The notes beneath the pieces are model-generated. The model searched no databases, was not told the DNA's origin, and worked only from the letters and a program-made list of their open reading frames with translations. Made by a program: the position numbers and the translations under genes. From Bacteroidota bacterium (GTDB lineage Bacteria > Bacteroidota > Ignavibacteria > Kryptoniales > JAKASW01): a stretch of 47,599 nucleotides of DNA. The DNA lies in NCBI GenBank assembly GCA_023480735.1, contig JAMCXB010000030.1, positions 1 through 47,599 on the forward strand. Reading direction: 5' to 3'. Positions 679 to 42,921 of this stretch are shown here, in pieces; within the stretch, counting starts at the first letter, position 1; each line of letters starts with the position of its first letter.

Positions 679-3012
679 TCATACGTCACTCCCGGAGAAA
701 TCAAATGTTGACAGCCGCCACTGATAATCGGGATCGACGTACGGCTCGTCGTTTTCATGTCCATGCATAAGTTCAATCTTCTTCTTCAATAGCGACCCGA
801 AATTTCTGTAGTAGACAAAAGTTGTCTCACCCACAGCGGAGATTATCATCCACCTTCTCTTCGCGGAATTCCAAAGGTCTAGAAGCTCCTGGGCATTCTC
901 GATTTCGGAAAGCACCATATCACGAAGGACATCCCTGCTTTCGGCCCTTCTGGTCGCATCCGAAGATTCCAGGTAAGTATGTACACCGGCAACCCATGCG
1001 GTCACATTCCGCTGGGTCTTCATCCATGATCTTAGTCCCCTGACTCTCTCGATCTGATCCTCAATGAATTCGGTCGTCCCAACCCCGGTTGCATCCTTTC
1101 GGGCCTGCATGAGAAGGGTCAAGGCTTTATCGATCGGGGGAATTACATTCTTGTCCATAAATTCAAATGCGCGCCAAGCCCTATCGGGTGCCAGGAGATC
1201 GAAACCTACGTCATATCTGAAGTCGACCCTGCACCGGTTATGGGGCGTAGCCAGTAGAAACTTTTCGTAGTAGCGCCGCTCTTTCTCCGGTATGGCATCA
1301 ATATTCGGCACAATCGGCCTGACGGCTAGCCTGTACCAAACGCCCCAGGCCGCGTATATCCACATTGGGATCGGGAATGACCGGACGGCCTCATCTATAT
1401 TCCTCCACACATCCAGCGCGGTCGATGCAGCATCACCGGCCCATTCTTCCGCCTTATTGGCGAGAAACTTTCCCGGATCCATCTCGCAGTCTGCCTGAAA
1501 ACCACGTACCAACTCCTGATTGATATTGTACGGAGCGAATGCCTCCGGAACCGCGCCCCCAAGAATACCGGCGTTTTTCACACCGGCCCGCTGCATATCG
1601 GTCAGCTTGTTGAATACCAGGTACGGAAAGGTTATCCCTATCAACGGTTCATGGTTCCAGATAATCCCGGGGGCGCTGACCACGTCCGCGTTGACCCCCT
1701 TTTTCGCAAGGTCATCGAGGTAGGACTTCTCCTTGACGTCAAATTTGTTGTGGAGAGCGGTGGTATGTATCTGCACCTGCTCACTGAATTTCGGATGCTC
1801 GTACGAAAGCCCCCACCCCTTTCCCTGAAGCGACGAAACTTCCAGGTCCAGTCCCTCGTCAAGTCTGCTCAATATGTGTTCGTGTTCTACCCAGAAAGGC
1901 TCCATCCTCAAAAGGACGCGGAATGCGGGATTTGAATTTCTTGCGGCATCACGAAGTAACTTCATGAATCGAACGATATTGTAAGCGGCAGCTACTTCGA
2001 CCTCCGTGTCTCCAAGCCACTCGCGGACGATGTATCCTCCTCCGTTTCTCCCAACATAAAGAGAGTTCGTATATTCGAAACCTGCCCCGCTGTCATTGGC
2101 CCAGATCGACATATATCCGAGATTGGGGACAGCTTTCATCAGGTTGACCATCATTTCCGCGTAATGCTCCCTCACCACCGGATGACCGATAGATAGATTG
2201 TAACGCGGTTCGAAACTCCGCATCGGGTGATCAACCCTTGCACCCCGAAGCATAGGGTATCTTCGCAGGAGGGATTCGGGGACCGACCTCGGTTCGAAAC
2301 AGACAATGCCTGGAGTGAGACCGTATTTTTCAGCCAGTTCTGCATTTGTCCGCAAGTAGTTCAGATTCGCCTGAAGATACTCGTCATCATAAGTGCCGGC
2401 ATTAAGCCTGCTTGAAACGAATTGGTCCAACGAAGGACAGTAGGTGTAGAAACGCGTGTAGACTTCATCCTTTGGACCTTTTCCCAGTGGAACTGGGAAT
2501 GCGAGTCCATTCACTTCGGCATTAGTAAAACCAAGGCGCGCAAGCGTCCTGAAGTATGACGGCCTATCGAATCCCTCGACGCTTCGTGCATGCTGGGTCA
2601 GAAACAGATCGTAAAGAGGACGCTGATTCACGAACGTCCTGTAGAGAAACCTCCCGTCTTTGAACTTGTCAGTGCTTTCATCGGACCAGTCTTCCATCAT
2701 CCTGGAGAAAGCAAAATAAAGAAAGCTAGGTGCACTGGCGTAAATCTCGATGTTGGAATTTGCGTCGGTTCTAATGAATCCCCATCCTGAATCACCTGCC
2801 GGCTTTACGCTGTACTCTCTCAGCGCAGCGTCGGAGCTCAAAACCCCGACTCTGATACACGGAGCTTCCTGTCCACCGCCCCCGCTGTACGAAAGACGCC
2901 TGGCATTGGGATTGACATCCGACAGCTCTTTACATACGGTGTCAACAACTCTCACGTCCGGCGAGAGTGCGACAACTGATTTTGCCTGTTTCAATGCCTC
3001 GCGCAGCTTCAT
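679..3012 (-). CDS. Putative glycoside hydrolase (GH20/GH67-like architecture)
   Basis: A 777-residue protein with no signal peptide. The first 110 residues look like the small alpha/beta domain that precedes the catalytic barrel in GH20 and GH67 enzymes. The rest is barrel-like, with Trp- and Asp-rich loops such as WANDSGAGFE near residue 305, followed by a helical C-terminal region. I cannot assign a CAZy family, so substrate and catalytic residues are unknown. The ATG at 3012 is preferred because GGGAG lies about 10 nt upstream; an ATG at 3021 overlaps the stop of the preceding gene. Either start implies translational coupling to the isomerase-like gene. It is the last gene of the catabolic cluster and probably acts in the cytoplasm on imported oligosaccharides. 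Confidence 0.6.
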   Translation of the reverse strand: MKLREALKQAKSVVALSPDVRVVDTVCKELSDVNPNARRLSYSGGGGQEAPCIRVGVLSSDAALREYSVKPAGDSGWGFIRTDANSNIEIYASAPSFLYFAFSRMMEDWSDESTDKFKDGRFLYRTFVNQRPLYDLFLTQHARSVEGFDRPSYFRTLARLGFTNAEVNGLAFPVPLGKGPKDEVYTRFYTYCPSLDQFVSSRLNAGTYDDEYLQANLNYLRTNAELAEKYGLTPGIVCFEPRSVPESLLRRYPMLRGARVDHPMRSFEPRYNLSIGHPVVREHYAEMMVNLMKAVPNLGYMSIWANDSGAGFEYTNSLYVGRNGGGYIVREWLGDTEVEVAAAYNIVRFMKLLRDAARNSNPAFRVLLRMEPFWVEHEHILSRLDEGLDLEVSSLQGKGWGLSYEHPKFSEQVQIHTTALHNKFDVKEKSYLDDLAKKGVNADVVSAPGIIWNHEPLIGITFPYLVFNKLTDMQRAGVKNAGILGGAVPEAFAPYNINQELVRGFQADCEMDPGKFLANKAEEWAGDAASTALDVWRNIDEAVRSFPIPMWIYAAWGVWYRLAVRPIVPNIDAIPEKERRYYEKFLLATPHNRCRVDFRYDVGFDLLAPDRAWRAFEFMDKNVIPPIDKALTLLMQARKDATGVGTTEFIEDQIERVRGLRSWMKTQRNVTAWVAGVHTYLESSDATRRAESRDVLRDMVLSEIENAQELLDLWNSAKRRWMIISAVGETTFVYYRNFGSLLKKKIELMHGHENDEPYVDPDYQWRLSTFDFSGSDV

Positions 3013-3014
3013 GA

Positions 3015-3839
3015 TTACCATGCTCCCACTGCTGAAATGCGTGATTCGACGAACGACTTAGCTGATGCATACTGGGCCGGTGTAACATGCTCAATTATTC
3101 CCCAGGATCGATAATCATATTGCTTCAGTTTCCGCATCAACAGCGTATAGTCCATGATTCCTCCGCCCGGCCCCGGATAGTCCCATGTCCCGTCTTCCAG
3201 AAGTCTGAAGTCCTTGAAGTGAACTGCTCCGATATTCGTGTGAAGCCGGTCGACCAGCTCGATCATTTTTTCCTGCCTTTTCGGATACTCTCCGGGCGAA
3301 ATATAGTTGGGCGGGTCTATTATCACTTTCACGCGGTCGGATTTCACCAGGTTCAACAATGCCTGCACCGAGGAAACATCTCGAAGGACCTGTGTATAGT
3401 ACGTCTCAAATATCAGGGTACCGTTCACACTCTCGAGAAGCTTTAGTATTTCTTCCGATGTGCGGGCGAGCTTCTGGATCGCCGCCTTTTCATAATTGCC
3501 TTCACTGTACACAAGGACATCATCCGCATAGCTTCCACTCCACATTGCAATTTCATTGCTCCCGAACATGGGGAGGAGCTCTATAATGCGCTTCGCCTTC
3601 GCCATATTACATCCCATCGTTGTTACTTCGGGACGCAGCGGATTGACATACGCACCGACGGGCCCGATTTTTAGACCATTTGCCTCGCAGACTTCCGCGA
3701 CCCGTGTGACGTTCTTTTCCGTTACATCGACTTCCCTGAGAAACATCTGGCAATATTTGAATCCACAGGCAACAGCGGCATCTACCTTCCCTTCAAGCTC
3801 GCTCATCTTATATAATTCAATGGAGATTCCCAGCTTCAT
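3015..3839 (-). CDS. Sugar phosphate isomerase/epimerase family protein
   Basis: A 274-residue TIM barrel of the xylose isomerase-like (AP endonuclease 2) family, the usual full length. The expected metal-binding set is visible: Glu145 (IFETYY), Asp175 (IIDPPN), His207 (VHFKDF) and Glu250 (GIIEH). Family members epimerise or isomerise keto-sugars or act as inosose/hydroxypyruvate isomerases; the substrate here cannot be told from sequence. It starts 9 nt after the Gfo/Idh/MocA gene and overlaps the possible first ATG of the hydrolase downstream. Pairing of an oxidoreductase with such an isomerase is common in sugar and inositol catabolic operons. Confidence 0.8.
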   Translation of the reverse strand: MKLGISIELYKMSELEGKVDAAVACGFKYCQMFLREVDVTEKNVTRVAEVCEANGLKIGPVGAYVNPLRPEVTTMGCNMAKAKRIIELLPMFGSNEIAMWSGSYADDVLVYSEGNYEKAAIQKLARTSEEILKLLESVNGTLIFETYYTQVLRDVSSVQALLNLVKSDRVKVIIDPPNYISPGEYPKRQEKMIELVDRLHTNIGAVHFKDFRLLEDGTWDYPGPGGGIMDYTLLMRKLKQYDYRSWGIIEHVTPAQYASAKSFVESRISAVGAW

Positions 3840-35619: not shown

Positions 35620-37410
35620 TCAATATAGCCTGATTAGAACTCCGTCCGTTGTCCATCGGGCTCTCACCTTTATCGGCTCCTGGTACACACCGAAAGGCTC
35701 GGCGAATTGATACGGGTAGCTTTCGCCGCTGAAGTAAGTGGAAACGGAGTCGTGCTGGACGTACGCCATCACAGTATAAGTTCCCGCAAGAATCCCGTCC
35801 AGCTTGTACTTTCCGTTTTTATCGGCAAAACAAGTGAATCTCTTGCCGTCGGTCCTGGTGGCGGAAACCACTATATTCTTTCCGGAAACTAAAGGCGTCA
35901 CCTTCCCTTCAATGTCGCCAAGGTCACCAGAATCGATAGTCCTGAAGTGGCGTGTGACGACCGAGTCTCTATTGCCTTGCTCATCGCTCCCGGTTCCCCC
36001 GGCATCTGCCGGATACTTCAGTTTTGCCGTGTACCATTCGGAGGAATTCAAGCCGCTCGTAACAATCCTGAAAATGGTCTGAGATATCCGTTTTATGAAG
36101 CCATGCAGTTCGAGGCCGGTACTGTCATGTAGAGAGACTTGCATCCTGCCGGAATCCAATCGCGTCAAAGGCAATATAAATTGACAAAAGAGTGTGTCGT
36201 ATGACGTAATACCCCGAGTCGAGTCCTGGAAATTAAAATAATAAGGAGCAAGACTCATCGTCGCACTATCTGCGGTCAGAACAGTTGTATTGTTCTCCGG
36301 CGACATTCGATTATAATAAATATCTGTCAGGTCTTCTGCGGCCTTTATGAAATATTTCCTCTTCAGCGGCAAAGGTGCCGTCGTTCCGATTACAACATCA
36401 TACGGATTAGCCTCGAGCCGAGCGGCAAACCCAACGGGGATTCTCTCCCCCGTGGCAGAATCGCGCACCACGAAGTCGGACGGTCTTATGACCGATGTGT
36501 CGATGGATTCGCTGAACTTCAGAACGATCAAGCCGTCTTTTGCCAGATCGACGCCGTACAGCTGCGGCCGGGAAGTATCTTCCTCGGCAGGGATAAAATC
36601 GACGTCATTGACCTCCGGCGCTTCCCTTGATATGTCGATGTCGTGTGTCGCGGAGGCGTACAGGTCAGTCTGCGGCGCATACGTGAAGTTTCGCATCTGG
36701 TCATCGAAACATATAAGCCGATATTTTCCATCGGCAAGTCCCTGCAGGACATAGCTTCCGCTATCGTCGGATTGAGTAACGTACTTGGCGAGGTTCATCG
36801 AAGGTCTCAGCGTGTCGATGTACGCAGTTACGGGAAATGCCGCAACCGTATACGGCTGAGGTTTCGGTCCGTAGATCCGACCGTTCACTATGCCGGTGTC
36901 GATCTTGTTCCCTGTTGAGAACACCAGGTTGTACGCTCTTCCAAGGTAGTTATTCCTGAGATCGATGGCTGTGGCGCCTATCGTCAAGATATAGGTCCGG
37001 TTCGTATCGAGCCTTTTCATCAGATTTATCGTCAACTCTTTTCCGGACCAATCGAACGACATTTCGGACAGGGTGAGCGGCGGAAAGTAAATAGCGCTCT
37101 CAACGCTTCGCTGCGACATATACTTATCGAACCGAAGGATTATTTTCTTTGAAGTAAAATTCAATTCTTTCTGCGAAGGCGAAGAGAAAATAATTTTGGG
37201 AGGAGACTTATCGACAGGTCCGCCTGACGGTGCGAACTGCCCTGCGCACCCTGCAAGGGCTATAACTAAGAAGAGCGACAAAGCGGCGATGGGCCGGGAG
37301 AAATGCGGATTATGGAACGTCGGTCTGTCGGAACGCTGGCTTGATGAACTAAAGCCAAGGGTCCCCGGATCACCGGAGGTCGCCGGCCGATAAATTTCTA
37401 TTTTTGCCAA
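35620..37410 (-). CDS. SbsA Ig-like domain lipoprotein
   Basis: A 596-residue predicted outer-membrane lipoprotein. The lipobox LAGC ends at Cys55 after an unusually long 40-residue n-region; no other ATG/GTG/TTG fits better. The PSGGPVDKSPPKII motif and an SbsA/Big_5 Ig-like domain (about 65-170) follow, then a second Ig-like module (about 280-380) and a carboxypeptidase-regulatory-like beta domain near the C-terminus (GKYKLDGILAGTYTVMAY). Such proteins are common and functionally obscure in FCB bacteria. The start overlaps the end of ubiX by 13 nt. Confidence 0.78.
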   Translation of the reverse strand: MAKIEIYRPATSGDPGTLGFSSSSQRSDRPTFHNPHFSRPIAALSLFLVIALAGCAGQFAPSGGPVDKSPPKIIFSSPSQKELNFTSKKIILRFDKYMSQRSVESAIYFPPLTLSEMSFDWSGKELTINLMKRLDTNRTYILTIGATAIDLRNNYLGRAYNLVFSTGNKIDTGIVNGRIYGPKPQPYTVAAFPVTAYIDTLRPSMNLAKYVTQSDDSGSYVLQGLADGKYRLICFDDQMRNFTYAPQTDLYASATHDIDISREAPEVNDVDFIPAEEDTSRPQLYGVDLAKDGLIVLKFSESIDTSVIRPSDFVVRDSATGERIPVGFAARLEANPYDVVIGTTAPLPLKRKYFIKAAEDLTDIYYNRMSPENNTTVLTADSATMSLAPYYFNFQDSTRGITSYDTLFCQFILPLTRLDSGRMQVSLHDSTGLELHGFIKRISQTIFRIVTSGLNSSEWYTAKLKYPADAGGTGSDEQGNRDSVVTRHFRTIDSGDLGDIEGKVTPLVSGKNIVVSATRTDGKRFTCFADKNGKYKLDGILAGTYTVMAYVQHDSVSTYFSGESYPYQFAEPFGVYQEPIKVRARWTTDGVLIRLY

Positions 37411-38009
37411 GGCTCGAAAAGTTCTGCTTCGATGTCAAAGAATGCGAGCACTCTTCCCGCAATAAAATCCGCAAGTTCCTCTATCGTGGACGGCTTCTGA
37501 TAAAAGGCAGGCATCGCCGGGAGAATGTGAGCACCGGCATCTGATGCGGCGACCATATTCTTAAGATGTATTTTATTGAGCGGCGTCTCACGAGGGACGA
37601 GCACCAATCTCCTTCCTTCTTTCAATGTGACATCTGCGGCGCGTTCTATGAGATTGCCAGCAATTCCGTTCGAAACACCCGACAGCGTTTTCATCGAACA
37701 TGGAACGATCGCCATCCCATCTGTTTTAAAAGAACCGCTTGATATAGATGCCGCAAGATCCTTGTTGCTGTATTTGATGATATCTCCGTTCAGGACATCT
37801 TCTCCGAATTTCACCCTGAATGCATCCAGCATCGTCCCGCTCTTGAGAGGAAAGTCTGTTTCTGTTTCAATTACATACGCGCCGTAATCGGAAATCACGA
37901 GATGGACTTCCACACCGTTGATGAGCATCGCCCGAATAGTATGAAGCGCGTAGATTGCACCGCTCGCCCCGGTTATTCCTACTACGATTTTTTTCTTTAA
38001 GTCAGACAC
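37398..38009 (-). CDS. ubiX: Flavin prenyltransferase UbiX
   Basis: A 203-residue enzyme that joins dimethylallyl phosphate to FMN, producing the prenyl-FMN cofactor of UbiD decarboxylases. The flavin motif GITGASGAIYA is at 11-21, PCSMKTL near 105, and the loop LVPRETPLN near 140. No ubiD is in the window. It overlaps both neighbours (8 nt and 13 nt), so it is part of a tightly coupled chain. Confidence 0.93.
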   Translation of the reverse strand: MSDLKKKIVVGITGASGAIYALHTIRAMLINGVEVHLVISDYGAYVIETETDFPLKSGTMLDAFRVKFGEDVLNGDIIKYSNKDLAASISSGSFKTDGMAIVPCSMKTLSGVSNGIAGNLIERAADVTLKEGRRLVLVPRETPLNKIHLKNMVAASDAGAHILPAMPAFYQKPSTIEELADFIAGRVLAFFDIEAELFEPWQK

Positions 38010-39450
38010 TTAGTTTCACTCTTCTATTTACTATTTTTGTTGAAGATATCTCCAAAACACCTATTAAGATAAATGCTAAAAGATTCACCGTCAAAAGTTT
38101 TTCCAGCCGGCCGAAAGAAAAGAACAGCGCCACAGACACGAGGAGAGAATATGCCAGCATGAAGACGAGGTTTACGGCCTCTATTGCTCCTAATCTCGTG
38201 AATGGGAGCGAAAACGGAAGGGTTTTCTGCATCACCGAAAACCAGCTTGCCGCAACATGGCTCAGCAGGTAGAACGTGACTGCCGAAACGACCGCAATAA
38301 CCGGCGGGTTTTCAAAGACAAGGACAAAGAAAACCAGGACTGTCATGGGAATATGGACTGTCAAGAGCATTGACTTTCGAACGCCAAGCACAAACTTGCC
38401 CGCGTTGAAATCGCCGCTTGTCTGAATAAGCCACTTCGCTTCATGGTCGACGGAGCTCAAGATGTTCTGAGAAAGGAAGTAATGCACCAGTACTGCCGAG
38501 ACGACCAACGACGCCAACGGCGCCACGAGATCAGAGCTGACAAAACCTGGGAATATATGGAACGTCATGAAACGGGCACTCTGCATCGACCAGTACACGG
38601 CAACCATAACCGGCGTCGCCGCAATTCCTATCGTCGACAGTCTGAAAGACGGATTGCGAAGGATGTTTGACAGAAACAGCATGAAGCCCGCGTTTTCCTC
38701 AGGGCTTCGAATCAATACGAGCTTCTTGACTCGATCCAGGATATATACCAGATCAAAATGACTAGAGGAGTTGTTCCAGTTCAGTTTGTAACTGAGTCTT
38801 TCAGCTAATGGATACACTACGAAGACAAAAGTCATCGCCAGCAGGATTGCGAGGGAGGCGAGTAACAACCCTAACGAACCGAATTGAATGTCAAGACCCG
38901 CCGACAATTGGAATAACGCCAGCAGGGTCAGCGCCATCATGAGCTGAATGCCTGTCAAAGCAGGATTCAATATCTTCTTAGATAGTGAAGAGACAATAAG
39001 CATGATAAGAAAATAAAAGGAGGCCGAAAGACACGATGACGTCAGAAATGCCAGCATCATTCTGCCCGGGTACAATTGTGCAACGCCGGAAAAAAGGATA
39101 ACCGGGAGAAATATCGAGAAAGAGACCATCAAGTCCAGGAGAAAAATCGCGGAAGCCGAAGAAAATCTGAAGGCGAAGGTTGGTTGGACAAAATAGAAGC
39201 TTTCGATATCACCGCCGTTGTAGAAGAGTTTTCTGGTTTCGGCGATCAACGTGAACAAAGTCACCCCAAACGCCACAGTTGCCACCCTGCCGGGGAAAAG
39301 GCCGCCGCTGAAGCCTTCGGCGGTCAATGCGAGAAAGAACCCGACCAGCAAATCGGGCGCAAGGAATTTCAGTACACCGCGGAATCCCTCCCCCCTGATC
39401 GTTTGTTTGAGTCTGAGTTTGAGCAGCTCCGGGAGCACGCGGGACTTCAC
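38002..39450 (-). CDS. Large polytopic membrane protein, ABC-2 permease-like
   Basis: A 482-residue protein with about 12 hydrophobic segments and few charged loops. The GTG at 39450 overlaps the TGA of the mltG fusion gene (GTGA) and is preferred to a longer frame reaching 39609 inside that gene. Layout resembles the membrane subunit of ABC-2-type exporters, but no ATPase gene is adjacent and no motif is decisive. It may act in envelope biogenesis, given its MltG and UbiX neighbours. Confidence 0.6.
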   Translation of the reverse strand: MKSRVLPELLKLRLKQTIRGEGFRGVLKFLAPDLLVGFFLALTAEGFSGGLFPGRVATVAFGVTLFTLIAETRKLFYNGGDIESFYFVQPTFAFRFSSASAIFLLDLMVSFSIFLPVILFSGVAQLYPGRMMLAFLTSSCLSASFYFLIMLIVSSLSKKILNPALTGIQLMMALTLLALFQLSAGLDIQFGSLGLLLASLAILLAMTFVFVVYPLAERLSYKLNWNNSSSHFDLVYILDRVKKLVLIRSPEENAGFMLFLSNILRNPSFRLSTIGIAATPVMVAVYWSMQSARFMTFHIFPGFVSSDLVAPLASLVVSAVLVHYFLSQNILSSVDHEAKWLIQTSGDFNAGKFVLGVRKSMLLTVHIPMTVLVFFVLVFENPPVIAVVSAVTFYLLSHVAASWFSVMQKTLPFSLPFTRLGAIEAVNLVFMLAYSLLVSVALFFSFGRLEKLLTVNLLAFILIGVLEISSTKIVNRRVKLSV

Positions 39451-40796
39451 TCTCTCATCATGGCTTTTCGGTAAGCTTTCACCGCGCGAAGATGTTCGCG
39501 ATAAGTATCGCTGAATCTGTGCCCGCCGGTACCCGTCGCCACGAAGAAGAGATACTTCGTCGTATCCGGATACAATGCCGCAAGAATGGATTTCTCCCCC
39601 GGGTTGCATATCGGAGTCGGAGGAAGGCCTACCCTTTCGTACGTGTTGTAAGGAGAATTGATTCGAAGATCCTTATAGTAAATCCTAGTATGTTCTCCCA
39701 TGGCGTACTCTATCGTCGGATCGGCTTCCAGGGGTATCCCTTTCCTCAAGCGGTTATAATAGACGCTGGCAATAATGGGCCTCTCGGAGTCGACTCTTGC
39801 CTCGGCCTCGACTATAGATGCGATTTTCATTATCTGCGAAACCGAGTATCCTGTCTCTACCGCACGCGAACGAAGCGAATCATTAAAAAACGACTTAAAC
39901 TGGTCGGCCATCCTCCTTATAATCTCACTCGCCGGTGTCCCATAATAAAAATCGTATGTCTGAGGGAACAAATATCCTTCCAGATTCTTCGAGGGGATGT
40001 TCAGTATGGTGGCCATAGAATCGCCGAGCGCTTCCTGAACGAACCTGAGGGAGTCGACTCCTACTTCGCGATGGTAGATCGAAGCGATTTGTTTCACGGT
40101 AAGGCCTTCGGGGACCGTCACCGTTACAAAGAGATTGCTTTTCCCTGACGCGATGAGGTTCAGTACGTCATAATCCGAGAAGTGGCCGGCAAAGATGTAT
40201 TTCCCCGCTTTGATCTCATGATCCATAGAAAGGAGTCTTGCGGCCAGTTTGAACAAAATCCTGTTAGTAATGAGATTATCGCGCGCAAGTTGGGAAAACA
40301 CCTGCTCAGCGGAAGCCCCATGTTCTATGGTTACCACAACTCCCTTTCCTTGAGCTTCGTGGTACGGCGTGACAAAGACAACAAAGAGGAACAACAGGAA
40401 CGCCGCCAATGCACTTGCTGCCAGCAGGGCCAGATTCTTTTTCTGCCGCAGGTCCACGCCGCTGATCTGCAGGGATCCGCCTGTAACTGACTTCCAGAAT
40501 TCGCCTGGTCGCATGGAGACTCTCCTCTCCTCCGCGCTTTCTCTTTCTAGCCTGCGTGATTCGTCGATAATTCTTTCATAGACTCTTCTGACGGCTTCAT
40601 CGGTTAACGGCCCCGGATTCTCCCTGCAAACATTGTCAATTACCTGCTTCTCTCTCTCCGGAGAATATATTTCAAGTCCCAGCTTTTCCTTGATCTTGCC
40701 GATATCATCCGCGTATCCCGCGCGTTTGTTGAGGAGTTTGACGATCCGCTTATCGGCGCGGTCGATCTTCCTCCTCAGCGATTTCATATTTCTCAT
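39447..40796 (-). CDS. mltG: Chorismate mutase (AroQ)-MltG endolytic transglycosylase fusion
   Basis: One uninterrupted 449-codon frame joins two known proteins. Residues 4-85 are an AroQ-type chorismate mutase: an all-helical LRRKIDRADKRI start, Lys34 in GKIK, SPEREK near 45-50, and DESRRLE. Residues 120-143 form a membrane helix. Residues 150-449 are MltG (YceG), which cuts nascent glycan chains in the periplasm; catalytic Glu330 is in ASIVEAE and YNRL follows at 347-350. Topology fits: the mutase is cytoplasmic and MltG periplasmic. The position of the E. coli mutase Gln88 appears to be Glu84, as in the yeast enzyme. It overlaps trpA by ATGA, so an aromatic-pathway gene precedes it. Confidence 0.9.
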   Translation of the reverse strand: MRNMKSLRRKIDRADKRIVKLLNKRAGYADDIGKIKEKLGLEIYSPEREKQVIDNVCRENPGPLTDEAVRRVYERIIDESRRLERESAEERRVSMRPGEFWKSVTGGSLQISGVDLRQKKNLALLAASALAAFLLFLFVVFVTPYHEAQGKGVVVTIEHGASAEQVFSQLARDNLITNRILFKLAARLLSMDHEIKAGKYIFAGHFSDYDVLNLIASGKSNLFVTVTVPEGLTVKQIASIYHREVGVDSLRFVQEALGDSMATILNIPSKNLEGYLFPQTYDFYYGTPASEIIRRMADQFKSFFNDSLRSRAVETGYSVSQIMKIASIVEAEARVDSERPIIASVYYNRLRKGIPLEADPTIEYAMGEHTRIYYKDLRINSPYNTYERVGLPPTPICNPGEKSILAALYPDTTKYLFFVATGTGGHRFSDTYREHLRAVKAYRKAMMRE

Positions 40797-41596
40797 TCGT
40801 CTATCGCCGTTCGGAGACTTCTCAGAAATTCAAAAGCGCTTTGACCTTCTGCTCCCTCGGGAGCGCCGGAAATACACTGCAATAGCGCGGAACCGACCAC
40901 GACCCCGTCGGAGAACCGCGAAATTTCTTTTGCCGCCTCCGGGGTTGATATACCGAATCCAACAACAAACGGCTTGGTCGAGAGTGTCCTGACGCGGCCA
41001 AGAAATTCCGTCACCTCGTTGTTGACCAGATTCCTGCGTGCTCCGGTAACCCCCGTCACAGACACGCAATATATGAGGTCGCTGGTCGCATCGTCGATTT
41101 TCTTTATCCTCTCACGGCTCGACGTGGGCGCAATCAACAACACGAGGCTCAGTCCGGCCTTCTCGATTTTCTCTCGCACGACATAGGATTCCTCGAGCGA
41201 CAAATCGGGAATTATCACCCCGTCGACGCCTGCTTCACTCAGCTTCTCAGGAAAGTCTTCACCGATTCCGTTCAGGAAAGAGTTCATATATCCCATAAGT
41301 ATAATCGGAAGCTGAGAATCGACACGGAATTTCCTCACGAGTTCGAGGACAATTTTAGGCGTAATGCCGTTTTCGATGGCTGTTTGTGAAGCCTGTTGAA
41401 TTACGGGACCGTCTGCGAGAGGATCGCTGAACGGAATGCCGAGTTCGACGAAATCGGCCCCGGCCGCTTCAGCTGATTTCAACACGCCGAGCGTCGAATC
41501 CGACCTTGGAAAGCCAGGCATCACATAAATACTTAGAAATTTCCTTTTGCCGCGACCTTTTGCGGCGCCGTCTAACAGCAAGCGAATTCTATTCAA
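40793..41596 (-). CDS. trpA: Tryptophan synthase alpha subunit
   Basis: A 267-residue TIM barrel that cleaves indole-3-glycerol phosphate to indole and GAP. Glu51 (ELGIPFSDP) and Asp62 (ADGP) match E. coli Glu49 and Asp60, and GFGIST is the phosphate-binding loop. The start is taken as TTG at 41596, 1 nt after the tsaD stop, giving the normal length; the longer frame to 41638 lies inside tsaD. The trpB gene is not in the window. The stop overlaps the chorismate mutase-MltG start. Confidence 0.93.
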   Translation of the reverse strand: MNRIRLLLDGAAKGRGKRKFLSIYVMPGFPRSDSTLGVLKSAEAAGADFVELGIPFSDPLADGPVIQQASQTAIENGITPKIVLELVRKFRVDSQLPIILMGYMNSFLNGIGEDFPEKLSEAGVDGVIIPDLSLEESYVVREKIEKAGLSLVLLIAPTSSRERIKKIDDATSDLIYCVSVTGVTGARRNLVNNEVTEFLGRVRTLSTKPFVVGFGISTPEAAKEISRFSDGVVVGSALLQCISGAPEGAEGQSAFEFLRSLRTAIDE

Positions 41597-41597
41597 T

Positions 41598-42641
41598 CTA
41601 TAGGCTCTCTGCCGAAGACTGATACACCTCCGGCACAAATGGAAGATTCGGAGCCGGTTTTAATGTAAGGTCCGAAACCATTCCGAATTTTCTGTACTTA
41701 AAGTAAGCAGCTATGCCGATCATTGCCGCGTTGTCGGTGCAATAAAGCGGTCTGGGAAAGAACGCCCTCGCATTAATTGAACCCGCACGTTCCTGCAGCG
41801 AGTTCCGGAGTTCCCTGTTGGCCGCAACGCCACCCGCAACCGCAATGGAATGAACCGAGAATTTCTCTGCAGCGCGGACAGTTTTCTCGACGAGAACATC
41901 GATTACAGCCCGCTGAAAAGACGCGCAGATGTCTCGCACCAGCTTCCCATCTTTGTCTGGTGAAGTGTATTTAAGTTCGCGCAGCAGGTAGAGGACGCTC
42001 GTCTTGATACCGGAGAAGCTGAATTCGAACGAGTCGCCGTTCATGAAAGCGCGCGGAAATCGAAATGCCTCCGGATTCCCTTCCTTCGCCAATTTATCTA
42101 TGACCGGTCCCCCCGGATATCCGAGTCCGAGGAGTTTAGCAACCTTGTCGAATGCCTCGCCCGCCGCATCGTCACGGGTTTGACCGAGTAGTTCGTGCGA
42201 GAAAGGCTCCTTCACATAGACCAGCATGGTATGACCACCGCTGACGACCAGCGCTATGAAGGGAAAGTCCGGTTTCTCCTTTTCAAGAAACGCCGAGTAC
42301 AGATGACCTTCCATGTGATTCACTCCCACAACTGGAATCCCAAGCGAAGCGGCAAAGGCCTTCGCAAAGCTCAACCCGACGATCAAAGAACCTGCGAGAC
42401 CCGGACCATAGGTAACCGCGACTCCGTCAATTTCGTCTTTTGCCAAACCCGATTTGCCGAGCACTTCTTCAATTACCGGCACGATCAGCTCCATGTGCGC
42501 CCGGGAAGCAAGTTCTGGTACTACGCCTCCGTACTCACTATGCACAAGCTGGGAAGAGATGACGATGGATCGAAGGTTGCCATCCTCCAGTATTGCGGCC
42601 GAGCATTCGTCGCACGACGTTTCAACTGCGAGTAATTTCAT
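41598..42641 (-). CDS. tsaD: tRNA N6-threonylcarbamoyladenosine synthase subunit TsaD
   Basis: A 347-residue ASKHA-fold protein that transfers the threonylcarbamoyl group to A37 of ANN-decoding tRNAs with TsaB and TsaE. The metal-binding HMEGH is at His109-His113, ETSCDE at the N-terminus and YCTDNAAMIG near the end. The ATG at 42641 is chosen. It is the first gene of the overlapping chain that continues through trpA to the Ig lipoprotein. Confidence 0.96.
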   Translation of the reverse strand: MKLLAVETSCDECSAAILEDGNLRSIVISSQLVHSEYGGVVPELASRAHMELIVPVIEEVLGKSGLAKDEIDGVAVTYGPGLAGSLIVGLSFAKAFAASLGIPVVGVNHMEGHLYSAFLEKEKPDFPFIALVVSGGHTMLVYVKEPFSHELLGQTRDDAAGEAFDKVAKLLGLGYPGGPVIDKLAKEGNPEAFRFPRAFMNGDSFEFSFSGIKTSVLYLLRELKYTSPDKDGKLVRDICASFQRAVIDVLVEKTVRAAEKFSVHSIAVAGGVAANRELRNSLQERAGSINARAFFPRPLYCTDNAAMIGIAAYFKYRKFGMVSDLTLKPAPNLPFVPEVYQSSAESL

Positions 42642-42921
42642 CAATAGATTATATAATTAACGACAAACATTTACAAGCTTATAAGAGGGAAACCCCGGCC
42701 CCCGCTTCTATTCGAATGTCGAATTAGTCTGAAGGCACTCGCGAATGAGAATCAATAACCTCCGACACCATTCGTCGAATTTCCATTTCTGGTAAACGGC
42801 AAACTTCCGCATCCGACTGCAGACCGGCAATTCACGATTAAAGGGAACTACCGGAAAGCCTTACGACGACAACCAGAGAATCAGCTTACGCAACATGATC
42901 TGCCGTTGGGAAAAGGCAGGC

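Follow-up and report, generated by a model that had tools for sequence, protein, structure and literature searches.

The window, by which we mean the whole stretch of 47,599 nucleotides that was analyzed, contains a single open reading frame that joins an AroQ-type chorismate mutase (CM), a membrane helix, and a complete MltG transglycosylase. With a probability of roughly 65%, we read its product as a genuine bifunctional, single-pass membrane protein that arose by stop loss or in-frame joining of aroQ and mltG. The earlier note had recognized the joined frame from the letters of the DNA; Pfam, NCBIfam, and AlphaFold2 agree with that assignment. The gene, its parts, and its upstream neighbors are as follows.

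39447..40796, minus strand: aroQ-mltG fusion gene, 449 amino acids, ATG start (open reading frame, Pfam, and NCBIfam)
40545..40778, minus strand: AroQ CM domain, residues 7–84 (Pfam CM_2 and active-site alignment)
40440..40514, minus strand: linker, residues 95–119, pLDDT below 50 (AlphaFold2 model)
40512..40514, minus strand: in-frame ATG (M95) with AGGAG upstream, a possible internal MltG start
40371..40427, minus strand: transmembrane core, residues 124–142, with RQKK just before it (hydrophobicity and model)
39477..40334, minus strand: MltG/YceG domain, residues 155–440 (Pfam, NCBIfam, and Foldseek)
39801..39803, minus strand: codon of Glu332, aligned to Glu218 of E. coli MltG (alignment)
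40793..41638, minus strand: trpA, whose stop shares 4 nucleotides with the fusion ATG; its start codon is uncertain
41598..42644, minus strand: tsaD, the upstream neighbor in most loci read in the class

The CM_2 profile (PF01817) matches residues 7–84 with an E-value of 1.7e-24 and 86.3 bits against a cut-off of 27, covering positions 1–79 of the 80 in the profile. YceG (PF02618) matches residues 155–440 (E 6.6e-87; 291.9 bits against a cut-off of 32.4), and the NCBIfam model TIGR00247, "endolytic transglycosylase MltG", scores 267.1 bits (cut-off 103.4). Apart from CM_2 and YceG, Pfam recognizes no domain in the frame; no prephenate dehydratase (PDT), PDH, or DAHPS domain was found in it. 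A hydrophobic core of 19 residues (124–142) lies between the two matches. The overlap with trpA is indeed present and spans 4 nucleotides (40793–40796). The frame is unbroken between residues 85 and 100, where the earlier note had considered a break, and the same frame is open in other genomes. Downstream of mltG, a large frame (38002–39609, minus strand) resembles a membrane protein and has no Pfam match. It is conserved at this position in the loci read from the genus, at 44–78% over most of its length; its listed start overlaps mltG by 163 nucleotides and is probably too far upstream. The next gene in the same run (37398–38009, minus strand) encodes a UbiX-family flavin prenyltransferase, and such enzymes belong to quinone pathways in many bacteria.

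The AlphaFold2 model of the fusion, for which the alignment held 26 of the 27 fused proteins described below (that of genome G182 was left out), has a mean pLDDT of 79.6 and a pTM of 0.51. The model contains an AroQ-type three-helix protomer (residues 2–39, 46–58, and 66–94) and, after the linker, one long helix (residues 116–142) that holds the hydrophobic core and leads into the MltG body. This order of CM, helix, and MltG is consistent with the topology that had been claimed. The RQKK motif in front of the helix suggests, by the positive-inside rule, that the CM domain is cytoplasmic. With the whole model as query, Foldseek retrieved 2d8d, 2d8e, 5gmu, 5j6f, and 1ecm for the CM half (E 0.0006 to 0.4), most of them at 0.8–2.2 Å; chains of 2d8d, 5gmu, and 1ecm gave 0.8–2.2 Å over 78–92 columns (E 0.0014 to 0.4). 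Among the closest solved relatives of this half are CM domains that belong to DAHPS-CM enzymes (5gmu, 5j6f, and 3nvt). For the MltG half, 4iiw, 8yq7, and 2r1f were retrieved with E-values of 8e-17 to 3e-10 and a root-mean-square deviation of 6.5–14 Å, which indicates that the parts of MltG are oriented differently in the model and in the structures. The E. coli MltG structure 2r1f carries the title "predicted aminodeoxychorismate lyase", a name that was perhaps borrowed from the neighboring pabC gene.

Alignment places the active-site positions of the CM domain at R8, R25, K36, S45, R48, E49, S80, and E84. The polar active site of the B. subtilis CM_2, as given in an excerpt of PMC5526877, comprises Arg10', Arg27, Lys38, Asp47, Arg50, Glu51, and Gln86. 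These residues correspond to R8, R25, K36, S45, R48, E49, and E84 at a constant offset of 2. Five of the positions (R8, R25, K36, R48, and E49) show no variation among the 27 fused CMs or among the 62 CMs encoded next to a separate mltG. Two others vary among the 27 fused CMs: in what we take to be the E. coli CM numbering, the Asp48 position (S45 here) is Ser in 19 and Asn in 8, and the Gln88 position (E84 here) is Glu in 15 and Gln in 12. Because the Asp48 position is Ser or Asn in all 27, mutase activity may differ. The CM of the fusion is under purifying selection, with dN/dS values of 0.016–0.086 in the seven of nine fused pairs that gave a value (rough, with saturation and several dS above 1) and of 0.023–0.076 in all six adjacent pairs (rough, several dS above 1).

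The fused CM is also the only mutase found. Twelve of the 13 genus genomes, those with a readable locus, each carry one CM_2, always the mltG-linked one, and no second CM_2 was found in these 12; in the 13th, G008, a contig end cuts the aroQ-mltG locus. The genome of the window is 90% complete, and the other 11 readable genus genomes likewise show no second CM. A search for AroH returned none in the 13 genus genomes, with a control that matched in 4 of 14 known genomes. PDT is encoded in all 13 by separate open frames of 278–342 amino acids. The earlier note had raised the matter of another aroQ or pheA; neither a second CM_2 or AroH nor a PDT joined to a mutase was found in the genus. Since no second CM was found and PDT is present, prephenate should come from the fused CM, barring an unknown mutase. 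Taken with the five invariant positions, this makes it very probable, as judged from sequence, that the mutase works.

The MltG half retains a transmembrane helix ahead of the outer domains and the aligned glutamate. Glu332 aligns with Glu218 of E. coli MltG, which we take to be the catalytic residue, and is kept in all 27 fused loci and in 61 of 62 adjacent loci; the exception, G191, has no sequence at this position. For six of the nine fused pairs, dN/dS of MltG was 0.033–0.104 (the rest are saturated, and the values are rough, with several dS above 1).

The fusion is not confined to one genome. A search of 61 genomes revealed the full open fusion in eight genomes of the genus, including that of the window, and in all seven of a second family of the order. 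The class was searched as well, over 391 genomes, once with the fusion as query and once with a CM alignment of 16 rows, and further loci were then fetched. Both genes are present in 89 loci, fused in 27 and separate, adjacent, and on the same strand in 62. The earlier note had proposed a search for the same architecture in relatives; the 27 open fusions fall in four families, namely f1 (8 of 12 readable genus genomes), f2 (7 of 7), f22 (11 of 21), and f26 (1 of 4). Separate adjacent pairs occur in f4 (24), f17 (14), f22 (10), f6 (6), f1 (4), f26 (3), and f9 (1). CM hits of at least 75 bits numbered 87 in the 391 genomes, and every one of them, that of G382 included, is located either within the mltG frame or upstream of it; weaker hits in G026, G164, and G354 have mltG adjacent too. 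Three f23 loci around a CM hit have no mltG nearby. In most other families of the class, the CM hits were all weak and often lay in long frames; they fall outside these counts.

Several of these loci depart from the common form. The fused proteins of L048–L057 (f22 and f26) carry about 22 extra N-terminal residues before the CM domain, which are missing from that of L058. Both the aroQ and the mltG frames look broken in L119 (positions 1916–3286; G382), with the gene order kept. No CM was recognized before mltG in L066 (G381), in which the match to the fusion starts at query residue 50 and includes one stop; a decayed CM may precede mltG there.

In the class loci read, the gene order is tsaD-(trpA)-aroQ-mltG, with trpA missing in f6, f9, f22, and f26 as well as in some loci of f2, f4, and f17. 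Across the phylum, aroQ and mltG are co-directional neighbors in at least 12 families. In a sample of 395 genomes of the phylum (297 outside the class), at least 45 genomes outside the class have CM followed directly by MltG in one frame, with one or two intervening stops (41 in f37, two in f51, one in f35, and one in f62, among the matches listed). No open fusion outside the class was among the matches listed, nor was the fused G182 of the class itself. All nine loci fetched outside the class (f35, f37, f51, and f62) have aroQ directly upstream of mltG. Six of them were picked from the 45 for that match and three are others of f37, so they show the arrangement and not its frequency. In seven of the nine, tsaD was not detected in the fetched stretch; it is present only in the two f51 loci.

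The existence of the aroQ-mltG pair without trpA (in f6, f9, f22, and f26, and outside the class in f35, f37, f51, and f62) makes trpA an optional neighbor. It was suggested in the earlier note that a former aromatic operon captured mltG by in-frame fusion. The in-frame fusion of operon neighbors is supported; a capture of mltG by an aromatic or trp operon is not, because the pair exists without trpA. We also rejected the idea that the pairing is merely carried by tsaD, since tsaD precedes mltG without a CM in G031 and since, in f35, f37, and f62, a CM precedes mltG in fetched stretches that showed no tsaD. In f13, an MltG match falls in a 1020-residue frame with one TAG inside the match (G040:C11:26513-27538 and G109:C28:48270-49397).

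A tree of TsaD, CM, and MltG was built from 94 rows (27 fused, 62 adjacent, and five without CM); the three f23 loci with a CM and no mltG, unfetched loci without both genes, and loci fetched later were left out. The tree was built quickly; 22 of its 91 inner branches are open, and some of its end branches are long. On it, parsimony requires 11 changes of the fused label, and well-supported branches force at least five, with fusions and fissions not distinguished. A single clade of all fused rows was rejected (p-AU 2.9e-9). A single early fusion that was later lost many times is possible, although less parsimonious than repeated change. In the separate state, the genes overlap as ATGA in G009, G012, and G049, an in-frame stop directly precedes the ATG in three of five f6 loci, and short gaps occur elsewhere. 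In G006, where the two genes are separate, the mltG frame ahead of the membrane helix has kept its likeness to a fused linker, and the junction contains a run of eight T (L011, 1482–1489); by their sequence, these separate genes look like the frameshift descendant of a fused gene. The bond was thus made or unmade several times, which argues that it is tolerated and not required.

In the bifunctional reading that we prefer, a stop would have been lost, or a frame joined, between the co-directional neighbors aroQ and mltG. The AroQ domain would remain in the cytoplasm as the chorismate mutase of the cell, converting chorismate to prephenate that feeds the separate PDT, and the C-terminal MltG domain would cut nascent glycan strands outside. 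An AroQ active site takes one arginine from the partner chain (excerpt of PMC5526877). Because the site is built from two chains, we infer that a catalytic CM dimer must join two MltG chains at the membrane. In M. abscessus, the outer, soluble part of MltG is monomeric, according to an excerpt of PMC11533991, and the fusion is therefore predicted to change the state of MltG. The main benefit would likely be fixed co-production and co-location, since co-production and a CM at the membrane follow from the architecture itself. The many separate pairs speak against fixed stoichiometry as the benefit and are explained in this scheme only by drift.

It is tempting to speculate, with the earlier note, that the CM domain acts as a sensor too. 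Binding of chorismate or prephenate would alter the CM dimer and, through the linker, the activity of MltG or its pairing with synthases, so that strand length would follow the supply of aromatic and folate precursors. DAHPS-CM fusions (B. subtilis, L. monocytogenes, and Geobacillus) carry the same AroQ fold at one end of another enzyme, and P. gingivalis also has one (excerpt of PMC12202928). In the near solved relatives among them, the CM can be a ligand-sensing domain, and chorismate or prephenate on it inhibits the fused synthase (excerpt of PMC5526877). Their partner is, however, a soluble shikimate enzyme, whereas here it is a membrane enzyme of the cell wall on the opposite side of the membrane. 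In E. faecalis, MltG is subject to control at its cytoplasmic segment (excerpt of PMC12369325), and the linkers of the fused proteins are short, as only 19–38 residues separate the CM match from the membrane core. Yet the bond often changes state, the catalytic halves sit on opposite sides of the membrane, and the linker, less conserved and less ordered than any other part of the fusion, evolves fast (dN/dS 0.09–0.31 in four of nine fused pairs; the rest are saturated and the values rough). We consider a sensing role unlikely, and the domain could hardly be only a sensor, as it is the sole mutase found.

Other neighbors of mltG bear on the same question. In E. coli K-12, pabC ends 2 nucleotides before mltG, and PA2964 (pabC) adjoins PA2963 (mltG) in P. 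aeruginosa, a pair listed in 2025 as folate/peptidoglycan synteny (excerpt of PMC11898565). A chorismate-branch gene thus sits beside mltG there as well; the enzyme is a different one, and the genes are separate in the one E. coli record and the one paper. The statement of the earlier note that no established link joins the shikimate branch to glycan-chain termination was accordingly too strong. In an actinobacterial locus (L039, 7456–9954), ruvX, mltG, and a gene for shikimate dehydrogenase follow one another; this enzyme was the one shikimate dehydrogenase among 10 flanking proteins sampled from 8 of 10 outside loci. Three different chorismate-related mltG neighbors in three phyla were thus observed, in a handful of genomes, a pattern that may be due to chance. 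A general link could be envisaged in which the state of the chorismate branch point sets MltG, through CM here, PabC in Proteobacteria, and perhaps AroE in Actinobacteria, with occupancy of the CM dimer switching MltG pairing or activity and hence strand length. We regard this extension as speculative and rather improbable. If it were true, the fusion would be its visible end.

Improbable, too, is that two proteins are made or matured separately, by an internal start or by linker cleavage, so that the fused frame would mean little at the protein level. The possible M95 start could yield free MltG in the genome of the window, which counts against the bifunctional reading, and the linker has a pLDDT below 50. 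Among the 27 fused genes, M95 with AGGAG is common only to that of the window (G000) and to G002, and another in-frame start in G005, G011, G268, and G182 has a Shine-Dalgarno-like match of 5–6 bases, which may be due to chance. However, an in-frame ATG, GTG, or TTG is absent from the linker in 4 of the 27 (G015, G019, G299, and G156), and we rejected a shared internal MltG start because none is common to all 27. A free second MltG is therefore possible in some species and not general.

That the CM is only a dimerizing scaffold, its catalysis lost, would accord with the shared active sites of the AroQ dimer and the monomeric soluble part of M. abscessus MltG cited above, but it is very improbable for a domain that is the sole CM found, in genomes that encode PDT, with five invariant active-site positions. 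An error of assembly or consensus can be set aside for practical purposes: the named relatives in the group are all metagenome assemblies of "Bacteroidetes bacterium" (JAKAGT010000003.1 and JAMCQL010000030.1 in the genus; JAKAJV010000022.1 in f22), but the fusion recurs in 27 loci of four families with diverged linkers, including that of G182 in a single 4.2-Mb contig.

The bifunctional protein that we favor has several partial counterparts. The P-protein PheA and the T-protein TyrA likewise join an N-terminal AroQ domain to a second enzyme (excerpt of PMC10520331); theirs is PDT or PDH, whereas the frame here has neither and PDT is a separate gene. Exported fusions of CM with cyclohexadienyl dehydratase are likewise rare, and the authors who described them saw no advantage in function from the covalent tether (excerpt of PMC10520331). 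They combine an exported AroQ-gamma with a pathway partner; here the CM precedes a transmembrane helix and the partner lies outside the pathway. MltG of E. faecalis and S. pneumoniae is also a single-pass protein with an extra N-terminal cytoplasmic part (excerpts of PMC12369325 and PMC8135044), which is either a segment that is disordered and phosphorylated or a domain of unknown function, whereas here it is a complete enzyme. No title or abstract opening returned by searches of open-access literature mentions a fusion of CM with MltG or YceG, and an excerpt of PMC1971073 contains nothing on yceG. What appears to be new is the sort of partner in an AroQ fusion; mltG beside pabC is already in print.

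The fusion is a naturally occurring construct that unites an enzyme of central metabolism with a cell-wall terminase in one chain, in organisms where one copy of each was found. It brings to the membrane an enzyme that is normally soluble and dimeric, and it predicts that MltG is paired. As a single polypeptide, it would allow ligand binding on one face of the membrane to be measured together with the cutting of strands on the opposite face. Along with the pabC-mltG pair, it offers a direct object for testing whether chorismate or folate metabolism is linked to peptidoglycan, as has been suspected.
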